Shown: positions 34,577 to 39,558 of the stretch, in pieces
Position numbering within the stretch: position 1 is the stretch's first letter
Layout: the number at the start of each line of letters is the position of its first letter
Source: Mycolicibacterium fallax
Lineage (GTDB): Bacteria > Actinomycetota > Actinomycetes > Mycobacteriales > Mycobacteriaceae
DNA length: 64,000 nt
Direction: 5' to 3'
NCBI RefSeq assembly: GCF_010726955.1
Contig: NZ_AP022603.1
Span: 1,612,001-1,676,000 of the forward strand
Program-made: the position numbers and the translations under genes
Notes under the pieces: generated by a model
Seen by the model: only the letters and a program-made list of their open reading frames with translations
Database searches by the model: none
Told to the model about the DNA's origin: nothing

Positions 34577-34909
34577 TCAGGGGCGTGGGGCGTACATGAT
34601 GACGCCGACGCCGAGCAGGCAGATCAGCGCCCCACCGACATCCCAGCGATCCGGGCGGAAGCCGTCGGCGACCATGCCCCAGAGCAGGGATCCGGCGACA
34701 AACACCCCGCCGTAGGCGGCCAGGATCCGGCCGAAGTTGGCATCCGGTTGCAAGGTGGCGACAAAGCCGTAGGCGCCCAGGGTGAGCACCCCGAGACCGA
34801 TCCACACCCAGCCCCGATGCTCGCGCACCCCCTGCCAGACCAACCAGGCGCCACCGATCTCGAACAGCGCGGCCACGGCGAACAACAGGATGGACTTCGC
34901 GACGGACAT
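34577..34909 (-). CDS. YnfA/UPF0060-family small membrane protein
   Basis: 110 residues, exactly the family length, from [25 protein letters not shown]. Four membrane helices; conserved [35 protein letters not shown] and the late [10 protein letters not shown] are all present. SMR-like fold of unknown transport function. It converges on the SDR with 9 bp between. It is one of the genes found here between the Rv2509- and Rv2510c-like genes that are adjacent in M. tuberculosis. Confidence 0.92.
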
Positions 34910-35060
34910 GCGCCAACGGTAGGCCGTCCACGGACGGTCACCGACCACCGTGGGACCCCGGTGACCAAGGTCACCGAATTGCGGCAGACCGTTCTCGCCG
35001 GCAAGGGATCGGTCGTCTCCGCGATACCATGGGACGGCCGTCTACCTTAGGGAATGTGAA

Positions 35061-36029
35061 ATGTCGAGACGATTGACCGATCCGGAGATTCTCAGCGAGC
35101 TTGAGCCGATCGCCGAGAACCACCTCAACCGGCATTTGTCGGCGACCACCGACTGGCATCCGCACGACTACGTTCCGTGGGATCGCGGCAGCAACTTCGC
35201 CGCCACCGGCGGCAAGGACTGGTCCGAGGAGCAGTCCGAGCTCAGCGACGTCGCCAAGGCCGCGATGATCACCAACCTGCTGACCGAGGACAACCTGCCG
35301 TCGTACCACCGGCAGGCCGCCGAGTACTTCTCCCAGGACCGCGCCTGGGGCACCTGGGTGAACCGCTGGACCGCCGAGGAGAACCGGCACGGCATCGCCA
35401 TCCGCGACTACCTGGTGGTGGCCCGCGGCGTCGACCCCATCGCGCTGGAGCAGGCCCGGATGGAACACGTCACCAACGGCTTCGCGCCCACCGACAAGGA
35501 GGAAGAGGCCTACAAGACCGACTTCCTGCTGTCGGTCGCGTACGTGACGTTCCAGGAACTCGCCACCCGGGTCAGCCACCGCAACACCGGCAAGGTCTGC
35601 GACGATCCGGTCGCCGATCGGCTGCTGCAGCGGGTCGCCGCCGACGAGAACCTGCACATGATCTTCTACCGCGACACCTGCGGGGCGGCCCTGGACCTGG
35701 TCCCCGACCAGGCAATCGACGCGATCGCGTCCTGCGTGGAGAACTTCCGGATGCCGGGTCAGGGCATGCCGAACTTCCGCCGCAACGGCGTGCTGATGGC
35801 CAAGCACGGCATCTACGACCCGCGCCAGCACCTGGAGGAGGTTGTGCGGCCGAACCTGCGCAAGTGGCAGCTGTTCGAGCGCACCGACTTCAGCCCGGTC
35901 GGGGAGGCGCGGCGGGACAAGTTCGCCCTCTTCCTGGAGGACCTGGAGCGACAGGCCACCAAGTTCGAGGAGCAGCGCGACCGGCTGCTGGCCCGCGAGG
36001 CCCGCAAGCTGGAGGCCGCGGCCGTCTGA
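35061..36029 (+). CDS. acyl-ACP desaturase, DesA type
   Basis: 322 residues, ferritin-like diiron fold. Iron ligands: Glu in TEDNLPSYH (about 74-82), EENRHGIA (about 106-113), Glu in FQELATRVSHRN (about 158-169) and DENLHMIFYRD (about 193-203). It introduces a double bond into ACP-bound fatty acids with electrons from ferredoxin. It is similar in layout to DesA1 (about 338 residues) but clearly a paralogue, and lies in the lineage-specific stretch between the SDR and the HerA-like gene. A strong hairpin terminator follows. Confidence 0.9.
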   Translation: MSRRLTDPEILSELEPIAENHLNRHLSATTDWHPHDYVPWDRGSNFAATGGKDWSEEQSELSDVAKAAMITNLLTEDNLPSYHRQAAEYFSQDRAWGTWVNRWTAEENRHGIAIRDYLVVARGVDPIALEQARMEHVTNGFAPTDKEEEAYKTDFLLSVAYVTFQELATRVSHRNTGKVCDDPVADRLLQRVAADENLHMIFYRDTCGAALDLVPDQAIDAIASCVENFRMPGQGMPNFRRNGVLMAKHGIYDPRQHLEEVVRPNLRKWQLFERTDFSPVGEARRDKFALFLEDLERQATKFEEQRDRLLAREARKLEAAAV

Positions 36030-36045
36030 TCCGCAACCACCCGAG

Positions 36046-36074
36046 AAACGCCGCCCGTACGGGCGGCGTTTTTC
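36046..36074 (+). terminator. rho-independent terminator after the desaturase gene
   Basis: AACGCCGCCCGT and ACGGGCGGCGTT form a perfect 24-bp palindrome (36047-36070), running into a T-run to 36073. It marks the left edge of the lower-GC stretch. Confidence 0.88.
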
Positions 36075-36170
36075 GTTTCCGGCACCTCAGCGCTTCGGTG
36101 AAACCGCTCCGGGGAAATCCCGGTTCCTGCATGATCGTCTCTGGACAGAATTGTGCGGGGAGGGGGATTC

Positions 36171-36881
36171 ATGGCAGCTCGCCTGACGCGGGAACAACGG
36201 ATGGAACGGTTGGTGACGAAATGCCGCGAGCGTATTTCGGCGCTAGATTTCAATCCCAGCTCACTATCCCAAACCCCAGACAGCAAATTGGGACGGTTAG
36301 CGCAAGAGGCCGGCTACGAACGGGTTTCGACGCAGTTCTGTCAACTCCTCGACGCGCAGCTAGGCGCAGCGAACATCGGTACATACCCGGCGCTCACTGA
36401 TCCGACGATCACTCGTGACACCAGGATTCACCTCTACGACCTCGATCACGCCGTGCCGCACCAGGAAGCCCGGGTTCTGTTTACCTCCGAAAAACAACTT
36501 TCGGAGTTCATGCAGCGGAATTTCGCGGCACTTTCGTACGTGAAAGAGCACCGCCTAAAATTTCGCAAACCCGAAGCTCGGATCGAAGGCTATCGATGTC
36601 GAGTAGACCTCCTCGCGGAGGACAGAAAGAACCATCTACTCGTGGGCTTCGAACTCAAACACGATGCACCAGGACGGGACCTCGTTTCCCAGGCCGGGGA
36701 TTACATGGATGCGCTGCGCGCCTTGGCAGAAAAAGAGGGTTTGCGGGGCGCTCGTTTGGTGATCGTCACCGGACAGCCGGACCCCAACAGGCAGGCGCAG
36801 ATCCAGGAATTAGCGAAGACACGCGGCGTGCAGACCACCTGGTTGCTCTATCGCCTCTCGATGAAGCTGACCGAGGCCTAA
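36171..36881 (+). CDS. PD-(D/E)XK nuclease, NucS/DUF91-like C-terminal domain
   Basis: 236 residues from the ATG after GGGAGGGGG. The N-terminal 90 residues look like a helical DNA-binding or winged domain (LGRLAQEAGYERVSTQFCQL). The C-terminal half has the nuclease core: SEKQLSEFMQRNFAAL (Glu near 108-112), IEGYRCRVDLLAED (Asp146), LLVGFELKHD (E161-x-K163), then SQAGDYMDAL (Gln174, Tyr178). This is the EndoNuc/NucS pattern, but the N-terminus is not that of NucS. Its composition is clearly lower in GC than its neighbours. It converges on a GyrB-like gene with 15 bp between. The role is unknown; DNA repair or defence is possible. Confidence 0.82.
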   Translation: MAARLTREQRMERLVTKCRERISALDFNPSSLSQTPDSKLGRLAQEAGYERVSTQFCQLLDAQLGAANIGTYPALTDPTITRDTRIHLYDLDHAVPHQEARVLFTSEKQLSEFMQRNFAALSYVKEHRLKFRKPEARIEGYRCRVDLLAEDRKNHLLVGFELKHDAPGRDLVSQAGDYMDALRALAEKEGLRGARLVIVTGQPDPNRQAQIQELAKTRGVQTTWLLYRLSMKLTEA

Positions 36882-36896
36882 GAGACTTCTCCCCGG

Positions 36897-37919
36897 CTAT
36901 GCGCGGCAGCTGACCCTCCGTACCCGCGAGAGCTCATACCGGGATTCAATGGCCCTTTCGATGACCTCGTCCACCACCTCGGTGTTCTCCAACATCCAAT
37001 TGCTGAAGTGTCCGGCGAACCTGTTGGAGACTTCCGGGGCGATCTCGACTTCCCATCTCCACCGATCCAGCGCAAATCTCGGATCGGCCGTTCGAATCGA
37101 GATGACCAAGACGAGGCCTTCAGTCACATTGCCGTGTGTCAGCGGGTTGCCCGAGGTCAATCCTCGCCGAAAGATGTACTGGTTCAACCCGTCGATGATC
37201 TTACGAACAAAACGATCCTCGTATGCGGTCTCCCATGACATCCGCACGCCATCGATGAAAACACGGAAGTCGAGGCTGTATCGGCCGTTCCACTGCGCCG
37301 CGACCTCGGTCGTCGTGCCGCCGGCGACATCCCGGAAATGCAGCACACCACCATGCATCGGATTCCATATTCGATTGATGTACCAAATGTAGTCGAGGAT
37401 GCCACGCGGATAGTGCAGCGTCAGTATCCGTTTGCTACCCAACTCCCCATCGCTACCCTGATCCCAGTCTTCGCTCACCGTGATCGTCAGCCCCGGATTG
37501 AGGAACGCCAGATCCCTGAGGGTCCCCAAGGCCGTTTCAAACAACTTACGGCCCCCCGTCATCAAGGCCGTCAGGCGCAGCGCCTCGTCCGCGGAGAGGA
37601 TCAGATCTGGACCGTCAGACCGGTCCGAATGCAGCTCGAGAGTGCCATCCGGATCGAGTGTGGCGTCGATTCGGCTGCCGCCGGCGTGCGCAACCCCCTC
37701 CACGGCGCGGACCAAGCGCTCGTTCAGTTCCTCAAGGGCAGCTTCCTCGGCGTCCTCGGGGCTGATTTCCGGGTCGAGCTCAGCCACGGTCAGGGGCCAA
37801 TCGGCGATGGACTCCTCCGGGTACTTCACCACGCAGTGGTGCGGCCCGCCCAGCCACGGAAACAGCGCGACCTCACAACATTTCCCGCAGACGGGCCAAC
37901 TCAACCCAAAGGTTTTCAC
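36897..37919 (-). CDS. orphan GyrB transducer-like protein with degenerate GHKL region
   Basis: 340 residues, GTG start fixed by an in-frame stop just upstream. Residues 130-330 follow the end of the ATPase domain and the transducer domain of DNA gyrase B: LRDLAFLNPGLTITV (134-148), LTLHYPRGILDYIWYINR (166-183), AAQWNGRYS (207-215), LTHGNVTEGLVLVISIRTADP (260-280), then a helical WMLENTEVVDEVIERAI. Residues 67-100 (AVEGVAHAGGSRIDATLDPDG) resemble the first GHKL strand, but the ATP-binding Asn/Glu, GLHGVG loop and the QTK-loop Lys are all missing (ALDRWRW stands at QTK). A Cys/His cluster (C11, C14, C15, H27, H28, C29) starts the protein. TOPRIM is absent. Function unknown; an ATPase-dead gyrase mimic is one reading. 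Confidence 0.72.
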   Translation of the reverse strand: MKTFGLSWPVCGKCCEVALFPWLGGPHHCVVKYPEESIADWPLTVAELDPEISPEDAEEAALEELNERLVRAVEGVAHAGGSRIDATLDPDGTLELHSDRSDGPDLILSADEALRLTALMTGGRKLFETALGTLRDLAFLNPGLTITVSEDWDQGSDGELGSKRILTLHYPRGILDYIWYINRIWNPMHGGVLHFRDVAGGTTTEVAAQWNGRYSLDFRVFIDGVRMSWETAYEDRFVRKIIDGLNQYIFRRGLTSGNPLTHGNVTEGLVLVISIRTADPRFALDRWRWEVEIAPEVSNRFAGHFSNWMLENTEVVDEVIERAIESRYELSRVRRVSCRA

Positions 37920-37977: not shown

Positions 37978-39558
37978 TCAGCGGCGGCGCCCGGTGCCGA
38001 AAATGCTGCGGGTGATCTCCCGGCCGATGACGGTGCCCGCCGAACGCATGGCGCTCTTGAACGCCGGGTTGTTCATCATCTTGTCCAGCATGCTCGGCTC
38101 CTCCGGCGCGGGCTTGCCCGCCGGGGCCGGCATCGGCGGCGGGGTGCCTGCGTCCGGCACCGGTGCCGCTGCCGGGGGCGGCGGCGCCAGCCGGGCCGCC
38201 AGCCTCTCGTAGGCCGACTCCCGGTCGATGCTCTGGCCGTAGGTGGCCTGCAGCGGGCTGGCCGCCGCGGCCGCGGCGATCGCCTCCGGCCCGATGGTGT
38301 CCATCAGCGACCGGGGTGCACGCATCCGGGTCCATGCCACCGGCGTGGGCGCACCGCGCTCGGAGAGCACCGTCACGACGGCCTCCCCGATGCCGAGCGA
38401 GGTCAACGCGCTCTCCAGGTCGTAGACGCCGGTCTTCGGGTAGGTGCGCACCGTCTTCGACAGTGCCTTCTGGTCGTCGGGGGTGAACGCGCGCAGCGCA
38501 TGCTGCACCCGCGCGCCGAGCTGGGACAGCACATTGTTGGGCACGTCGGTGGGCAGCTGGGTGCAGAAGAACACCCCGACGCCCTTGGAGCGGATCAGCT
38601 TCACCGTCTGCTCGACCTGCTCCAGGAAGGCCTTGGAGGCGTCGTTGAACAGCAGGTGCGCCTCGTCGAAGAAGAACACCAGCTTGGGCTTGTCGACGTC
38701 GCCGATCTCCGGCAGACCGGTGAACAGGTCGGCCAGCACCCACATCAGGAAGGTGGAGAACAGCACCGGGCGGGTGGCCTGGTCGCCGAGCTCCAGCAGC
38801 GTGATCACGCCGCGGCCCTGCGGGTCCAGCCGCATCAGGTCCTTGGGTTCGAGCTCGGGCTCGCCGAAGAAGGTGTCCCCGCCGTCGGCCTCCAGGTTGA
38901 TCAGCGCCCGCAGGATCACCCCGGCCGTCGTGGAGGACACCGCGCCGAGCGCCTTGAGCTCGGCCTTGCCCTCGGCGCTGGTCAGGAACTGGATGACCGC
39001 GCGCAGATCCTTGAGGTCCAGCAGCGGCAGGCCCTGCTGATCGGCCCAGTGGAAGATCAGTCCCAGCGTCGACTCCTGGGTCTGGTTGAGGCCCAGCACC
39101 TTCGACAGCAGGATCGGGCCGAAACTGGTGATGCTGGCGCGAACCGGCACGCCGGTGCCCTGGGTGCCCAGCGACAGGAACTCCACCGGGTAGGCGGTCG
39201 GGGTCCACTCATCGGCGGTGTCGGTGGCCCGCTGGGCGGTGCGCTCCCCGGCTTCGCCCGGCCGCGACAGGCCCGACAGGTCGCCCTTGACGTCGGCCAT
39301 CACCACCGGGACGCCGGCCGCCGAGAGCTGCTCGGCCAGCACCTGCAGCGACTTGGTCTTGCCGGTGCCGGTGGCCCCGGCGATCAGGCCGTGCCGGTTA
39401 ACCGTGGCCAACGGGATGCGCACCCGGGCGTTGGGCGTCACCTCCCCGTCGACGACGACGGAACCGAGGACCAGTGCCGCCCCATCGACGGCGTAGCCGC
39501 CGGCAATGTGCTGCGCGGGGGTCATCGCCGAAGATGGCGCGCTCTGTTCGGTGCTCAC
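37978..39558 (-). CDS. HerA-like ATPase, DUF853 family (Rv2510c-like)
   Basis: 526 residues. Walker A GATGTGKTK (about 60-68), Walker B LVFFFDEAHLLF, and the DUF853 segments VVMADVKGDLSG, LGLNQTQESTLGLIF and FCTQLPTDVPNNVLSQLGARVQHALRAF. RecA-fold ATPase related to HerA/FtsK DNA pumps. C-terminal Pro-rich linker and a short tail ending FGTGRRR. It corresponds to Rv2510c in gene order. The GyrB-like gene lies 58 bp downstream on the same strand and may be read through from it. Confidence 0.92.
   Translation of the reverse strand: MSTEQSAPSSAMTPAQHIAGGYAVDGAALVLGSVVVDGEVTPNARVRIPLATVNRHGLIAGATGTGKTKSLQVLAEQLSAAGVPVVMADVKGDLSGLSRPGEAGERTAQRATDTADEWTPTAYPVEFLSLGTQGTGVPVRASITSFGPILLSKVLGLNQTQESTLGLIFHWADQQGLPLLDLKDLRAVIQFLTSAEGKAELKALGAVSSTTAGVILRALINLEADGGDTFFGEPELEPKDLMRLDPQGRGVITLLELGDQATRPVLFSTFLMWVLADLFTGLPEIGDVDKPKLVFFFDEAHLLFNDASKAFLEQVEQTVKLIRSKGVGVFFCTQLPTDVPNNVLSQLGARVQHALRAFTPDDQKALSKTVRTYPKTGVYDLESALTSLGIGEAVVTVLSERGAPTPVAWTRMRAPRSLMDTIGPEAIAAAAAASPLQATYGQSIDRESAYERLAARLAPPPPAAAPVPDAGTPPPMPAPAGKPAPEEPSMLDKMMNNPAFKSAMRSAGTVIGREITRSIFGTGRRR

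Follow-up and report, generated by a model that had tools for sequence, protein, structure and literature searches.

In the window, a stretch of 64,000 nucleotides of Mycolicibacterium fallax, a gene for a GyrB-like protein and a gene for a NucS-like nuclease were found 15 bp apart in convergent orientation. Because the genes converge, the pair is not one operon. The nuclease gene was missed by the earlier note on this DNA, which dealt with the GyrB-like protein, and it belongs to the same story. The features considered here are as follows.

36897..37919, minus strand: stand-alone, ATP-dead GyrB-like protein of 340 aa (PF00204, NCBIfam GyrB, five relatives, low GC)
37833..37898, minus strand: Zn-type module W-P-V-C-x2-C-x12-H-x-C, residues 8-29
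37590..37754, minus strand: remains of GHKL (residues 56-110: first helix, two strands) lacking the ATP-binding residues (single BLASTP segment with residues 1-119 of the relative L014; hhalign; motif table)
36927..37535, minus strand: last GHKL helix and GyrB transducer, residues 129-331, with the QTK loop lost (PF00204, NCBIfam, solved chains, motif table, hhalign)
36153..36881, plus strand: NucS-like PD-(D/E)XK nuclease, convergent neighbour gene (weak NucS_C and PRK04247 matches, AF2 fold, linkage in L003 and L004)
36606..36659, plus strand: catalytic signature D152-x14-E167-x-K169 of the nuclease, numbered from its GTG start
37978..39558, minus strand: HerA_C ATPase of the native flank (PF05872, 2.6e-200), 58 bp upstream of the GyrB-like gene and co-directional with it
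36042..36075, no strand assigned: inverted repeat of two 17-nt arms, 94% complementary, with no loop as counted and a T-run in the 3′ arm, lying between a fatty acid (FA) desaturase gene and the pair

The GyrB-like frame starts with GTG and, judged by sequence comparison, its product is GyrB-derived with a clear line of descent. PF00204 (DNA_gyraseB) matched residues 173-328 with an E-value of 1.9e-11 (44.2 bits, cut-off 27), the best of the NCBIfam GyrB models matched residues 129-328 at 1.6e-20, far under the full-length cut-offs, and the best solved GyrB chain matched at 2.9e-18. On aligning five members of the family against three GyrB N-terminal halves by hhalign, a probability of 100 and an E-value of 1.5e-79 were obtained over a span that includes both GHKL and transducer. 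The AF2 model of the protein had a pLDDT of 44.3 from a 3-row alignment and was left out of the fold search. The reading of a stand-alone GyrB transducer-like protein thus stands, and the profile search that had been proposed as its check gave a significant match to the GyrB transducer.

The ATP site was compared box by box using a motif table, in which the functions assigned to GyrB residues are general background and the alignment columns were computed. In the window protein the ATP lid, the GGLHGVG box and most of the DDGRG box of GHKL are missing, EVVDNA has become RLV-RA and QTKTKLG has become ALDRWRW, such that none of the GHKL ATPase motifs (Glu, Asn, GGLHGVG, lid, QTK lysine) is retained. 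The BLASTP alignment places 18 residues of the window copy (111-128) opposite 89 residues of L014 (120-208), so that the middle of GHKL is lacking. The transducer forms the end of the protein, and the TOPRIM and GyrA-binding half is absent. The shrunken GHKL part with no working ATP site and the lack of TOPRIM were both described correctly from the sequence in the earlier note.

Five relatives were found in the same genus sample (six of 396 genomes including the window's), namely a protein of 428 aa in Mycolicibacter longobardus (L003), one of 442 aa in M. senuensis (Mycolicibacter; L004), and those of genomes G065, G707 and G571. Across the six members the catalytic Glu position reads R, R, R, D, D and A, the ATP-binding Asn is retained in two, and GGLHGVG, the lid, the QTK lysine and the RPGMYIG N-terminal arm are found in none, so that the ATP motifs are lost throughout. 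All six stop before TOPRIM and lack the GyrA-binding half, five retain the transducer, and all six carry the Zn-type module. HATPase_c (PF02518) was still recognised in L003 (1.4e-8) and L004 (2.2e-8) and gave no match in G065. The homologue survey therefore shows ATP-site motifs lost, Cys and His kept and TOPRIM absent in every member, with which a damaged gyrB copy fits poorly; this was dropped as the main reading since the relatives have the same TOPRIM-less layout and the host genome carries another gyrB in an open frame of 689 aa (G000:C1:2858406). In the tree, from which G571 was omitted, the five family rows split from 14 GyrB and Streptomyces rows with a support of 100/99, although the window member has a very long branch (2.4) and such long branches make any finer placement unsafe.

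The N-terminus had been described as Cys/His-rich, and this holds for four of the residues: C11, C14, H27 and C29 are constant in 14 of the 14 N-termini read (six on GyrB-like proteins and eight on short proteins without a GyrB part) and are likely the metal ligands, whereas C15 and H28 vary among relatives. An invariant Trp sits three residues before the first Cys. The 44-residue N-terminus was searched against 396 genomes of the genus, giving 16 matches at E up to 0.001. When the frames were read, there were six GyrB-like proteins, eight short proteins (that of G590 cut short), G047 with an internal stop and G116 without the motif; the last two, G116 being weak and G047 having its stop within the match, were dropped from the count. 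In the family sample of 401 genomes the module is carried by six, after two weak matches in other genera (G185 and G378), whose frames were read and lack the motif, had been dropped; at order level it occurs in 5 of 249 genomes, all within the window's genus. The short proteins (L039, L040, L041, L084, L085, L088, L089 and L090) form a family that shares the window's Zn-type N-terminus and, except for the cut-short L085, a tail of the form L-x-H-L-x-R-[FY]-[FM]-E-R-[VI], for which comparison with GHKL by hhalign gave probabilities of 1.2-12%. Three of them scanned against Pfam gave no match above cut-off, and neither these three nor the window protein matched the YacG zinc-finger family in Pfam at E up to 10.

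Judged by reading, translation of the neighbouring nuclease probably begins at the ATG at 36171, which follows a GGAGG-type site. Its matches to NucS_C (0.014, 15.8 bits against a cut-off of 24) and PRK04247 (5.7e-5, 22.3 bits against a cut-off of 216) are weak, and its N-terminal part has no NucS match. The AF2 model (pLDDT 76.8) gave EndoMS/NucS as the best PDB matches in Foldseek, with an E-value of 4.8e-5 but a TM-score of 0.36. The catalytic signature is intact and is present in six of the six nuclease relatives read; the window copy is 49% and 47% identical to those of L003 and L004. By motif the core is NucS/EndoMS-like and by fold it may be, while the scores stay under the Pfam and NCBIfam cut-offs. 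DUF4263 matched neither the window nuclease (Pfam, E up to 10) nor five relatives (E up to 5). On searching 401 genomes of the family, 13 passed the limit, of which 9 were dropped for being weak and partial (E 1.6e-4 to 5.9e-4, covering 35-91 model positions), leaving four genomes with strong matches; at order level there were 4 in 249, one of these being a weak partial match outside the family. The PADLOC candidate models PDC-S02/S11/S18 match the nuclease (3e-5 for the window copy, 7e-8 for a copy in G138), and PADLOC gave no match for the GyrB-like protein. One nuclease copy lies near a phage-type integrase (L033), and others are a few kb away from helicase genes that have PADLOC matches (L034, L079). 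One G138 copy (L032:5906-16183) has a RecB-type PD-(D/E)XK gene on one side and, on the other, a NurA-like gene just under cut-off, which is followed by a gene labelled SbcC-like by reading; this region is a possible repair or defence island. Such surroundings, together with the PADLOC candidate matches, fit a possible conflict role.

The base composition of the pair is foreign to its surroundings. The GyrB-like gene has a GC of 0.605 and a GC3 of 0.754; the GC3 values of 0.66 for the nuclease and 0.75 for the GyrB-like gene compare with 0.87-0.94 in the other five window genes measured, and in L003 and L004 the pair has a GC of 0.57-0.62 against 0.68 in the flanks. A search of 41 genus genomes matched the HerA_C ATPase upstream, which we take to be Rv2510c-like, in 37. 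From the best 30 HerA loci the window's own and L070, the contig of which ends about 0.1 kb past HerA, were left out, and at the remaining 28 neither the nuclease nor the GyrB-like gene had a match within the roughly 0.9-1.5 kb of flank past HerA. A short-chain dehydrogenase/reductase (SDR) gene takes the place of the pair in 26 of the 28, and L069 and L071 show neither the pair nor the SDR gene. The stretch 34577-36029 of the window, with a small gene and the FA-desaturase gene, is likewise absent at all 28 loci, which points either to repeated use of the site or to a composite insert. As these two genes have native-like GC3, the low-GC unit is the pair itself. The inverted repeat at 36042..36075 looks like a terminator by eye and is not in the computed list of terminator-like sites; no promoters were found, and shuffled sequence gives as many terminator-like sites as the two listed.

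A phage or plasmid origin was considered and rejected on the following searches of phage, plasmid and viral-contig sequences. With the GyrB-like protein, tblastn against phages returned 28 records, all of which cover less than 80% of the query; all of the 20 matches listed begin at residue 90 or later, without the Zn-type module, and the four annotated ones are gyrB. Viral contigs were searched with the nuclease, the L003 protein, the Zn-type module and the family alignment (2-6 short peptide patterns each), and no relative was found; the nuclease had no match in the phages or plasmids searched. As for the pair within the chromosome, its composition and its absence from the other HerA flanks suggest a foreign, mobile module.

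The pairing itself recurs. In L003 and L004 the nuclease gene directly precedes the GyrB-like gene in tandem, 63 and 111 bp apart, with flanks unlike those of the window. These two are probably one event, hence the independent pairings are two, at unrelated loci. In the M. longobardus locus two further genes, which read to us like a RES-Xre toxin-antitoxin pair, adjoin the GyrB-like gene (L003:7316-8455), and recX is there in M. senuensis. Of the four family genomes in which the nuclease matched strongly, three also have the Zn-type module (six carriers in 401 genomes), giving a hypergeometric p of 7.5e-6, or 3.7e-4 without the window genome, and 2.1e-5 and 7.8e-4, respectively, if the two weak Zn matches are counted; these values assume that both draws of 401 are the same genomes and ignore relatedness. 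Conversely, the nuclease is present in 4 of the 14 Zn-module genomes checked (G374, G086, G011 and G536, the last as two overlapping pieces). No nuclease match was found in the genomes of the GyrB-like members G065, G707 and G571, which judging by their neighbours are one locus. Nuclease copies without a GyrB-like gene are carried by G138 (twice), by G011 and by G536, where the copy is broken.

The layout was compared with known systems. With the GyrB N-terminal half (GyrB43) of type IIA topoisomerases the family has the transducer in common, and in L003 and L004 also a recognisable HATPase_c fold. It differs in lacking complete ATP motifs, arm, lid, QTK lysine and TOPRIM and in having the Zn-type module added, and the window copy further lacks most of GHKL. 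MTOPVIB is described in PMC11077084 as an ATP-dead GHKL-transducer partner of SPO11. The likeness to MTOPVIB/TOPOVIBL-SPO11 lies in a degenerate GHKL without ATP binding, a transducer and a DNA-cutting partner (putative here), whereas those proteins are eukaryotic, of Topo VIB descent and joined to SPO11, and here the best matches are to GyrB and the neighbour is a PD-(D/E)XK nuclease. VcSduA, of Shedu type I-D (paraMORC3), is according to PMC12137116 an anti-phage protein of GHKL and PD-(D/E)XK that needs its ATPase residue to defend; it resembles our pair in linking a GHKL module to a PD-(D/E)XK nuclease, but it is one polypeptide with DUF4263, as opposed to two genes, a dead ATP site and no DUF4263 match. 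Iyer et al. (PMC2292703) describe GHKL+S5 modules that work with fused or separate nucleases, including paraMORCs and MutL-MutH, in which a GHKL+S5 protein steers a stand-alone restriction-fold nuclease; MutL, unlike the GyrB-like protein, is an active ATPase from another branch. By analogy, the pair would at most work like MutL-MutH, MTOPVIB-SPO11 or GHKL-Shedu, and it is a member of none of these.

That no described family has this layout, as the earlier note held, is borne out in so far as no description of the GyrB-like/Zn-module family was found in the literature searched (open-licence papers only). It does not hold for stand-alone GyrB halves as such, three of which (WP_331725415.1, WP_331746379.1 and WP_331733845.1; 387-396 aa, GHKL and transducer without TOPRIM) are found on Streptomyces plasmids at L044:3295-4473, L045:5944-7134 and L046:5962-7125, annotated as ATP-binding protein or DNA gyrase subunit B. 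In all three the ATP-site Asn is replaced (Tyr in two, Arg in one). They differ from the window family in having no Zn-type module, other neighbours, the catalytic Glu in two of the three and the arm motif in all three, and they form a group of their own in the tree (100/100) across from the window family, by which their origin is separate. It may also be noted that L047:5183-10601 (Gordonia amicalis) and L048:673-5830 (Mycobacterium adipatum) have an extra plasmid gyrB beside arylsulfatase, formylglycine-generating enzyme and GntR genes.

The reading that we favour, tentatively and at somewhat less than an even chance, is that the protein is a GyrB-derived, ATP-independent control or targeting subunit of the NucS-like nuclease, in a mobile, conflict-type two-gene module. 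We regard a non-catalytic nuclease subunit as the best reading because of the linkage at two sites, the co-occurrence and the known GHKL-nuclease partnerships. Such a subunit would be built of a Zn-type knuckle, which may bind zinc, a broken GHKL fold and the retained transducer (S5-type) domain. It would bind the nuclease and set where or when cutting happens, its role being that of a non-catalytic targeting or restraining subunit, and the module would probably serve in conflict with phages or plasmids. Counting against this are the three nuclease-less members, the unpaired nuclease copies and the convergent order in the window.

The direction of control could also be that of an antitoxin-like inhibitor, an acidic protein masking a basic nuclease and being freed or degraded on infection. 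The window nuclease has a pI of 9.3 (9.3-9.5 among the nucleases) and its partner one of 4.95, and this opposition along with the gene pairing would suit an inhibitor. However, the full-length GyrB-like members have a pI of 4.95-5.71 with or without a nuclease (host GyrB N-half, 5.96), so that the unpaired ones are acidic as well. It is the transducer segment alone that differs, at 5.3-6.2 for the three members with a nuclease neighbour and 9.2-9.8 for the three without, and since the host GyrB transducer has 6.0, the unpaired members are the odd ones. For this reason the charge contrast gives a weaker hint at partnership. The nuclease moreover occurs without a GyrB-like partner in three genomes, even if the G536 copy is broken, the genes converge in the window, and usual antitoxins are smaller than the GyrB-like protein. 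We consider an antitoxin unlikely.

The short Zn proteins allow another arrangement, in which the Zn-type module would be a docking or control plug for the NucS-like nuclease carried on exchangeable bodies, either a short protein or an ATP-dead GyrB half. The GyrB half would then be a gyrase look-alike or a DNA-topology sensor for guard or decoy defence, a piece of an attacked housekeeping enzyme turned into a sensor, and the nuclease would be released or directed by gyrase-targeting factors of phages or plasmids or by a change in supercoiling. In its support, G011 has a nuclease and a short Zn protein about 11.5 kb from each other, and G536 has both on the same contig, its nuclease being broken and about 55 kb away. 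Most genomes that encode a short Zn protein, however, gave no nuclease match, and we hold this arrangement to be quite unlikely.

The earlier note proposed gyrase as the target, with the protein serving as its decoy, inhibitor or protector, and little was found to sustain this. GyrB subunits pair through a dimer arm at the N-terminus and through the ATP lid, and both of these, as well as the GyrA-binding half, are missing in all six members. A dead GyrB half might still compete for GyrB contacts or soak up gyrase-directed toxins, the Zn-type module possibly helping in a YacG-like manner; the clear GyrB descent and the transducer in five of the six members speak for this, and zinc-finger YacG binds GyrB by Trp insertion according to PMC10886550, an invariant Trp being part of the Zn-type module here. 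Yet the module is also on eight proteins without any GyrB part and the gene is linked to that of a nuclease rather than to gyrase, which makes a gyrase role rather improbable.

A decaying relic, a gyrB side branch fused to a Zn-type module with its domains eroding under weak selection, would account for the stepwise loss within the family. L003 and L004 still have the Asn and Asp boxes, the Asn is gone from G065 and G707, the window copy has lost the middle of GHKL, and G571 lacks the lid region and the C-terminus. The long window branch agrees with erosion, as do the pN/pS values of 0.63-0.73 between the window gene and its relatives; these come from distant comparisons only, with silent sites near-saturated, and given the very long branch as well they do not establish that the window gene itself is constrained. 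For the closest pairs the values are 0.49 (L003/L004) and 0.46 (G065/G707), owing to which these genes look maintained as proteins. The frames are open through the C-terminal Cys in five of the six members, the Zn ligands are the same throughout and the gene has moved with a nuclease, all of which weigh against a relic and leave it doubtful. That two unrelated foreign genes landed in one place by chance is the least probable, for though insertion hot spots gather genes and three members have no nuclease, both genes are rare and lie 15-111 bp apart at two unrelated sites in differing orientations.

For a control or targeting subunit, the principle would not be new, as the steering of nucleases, whether separate or fused, by a GHKL-transducer engine is known from MutL-MutH, paraMORC, Shedu and topo VI-like SPO11 complexes. 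To our knowledge, none built from GyrB and free of ATP has been described in bacteria. The Streptomyces halves suggest that a GyrB half has been retired into a stand-alone role more than once. If the pair is a working unit, it would represent a second route by which half of a topoisomerase became a non-catalytic nuclease subunit, the idea of a gyrase guard or decoy would become directly testable with two small genes, and the mycobacteria would gain an undescribed nuclease module.
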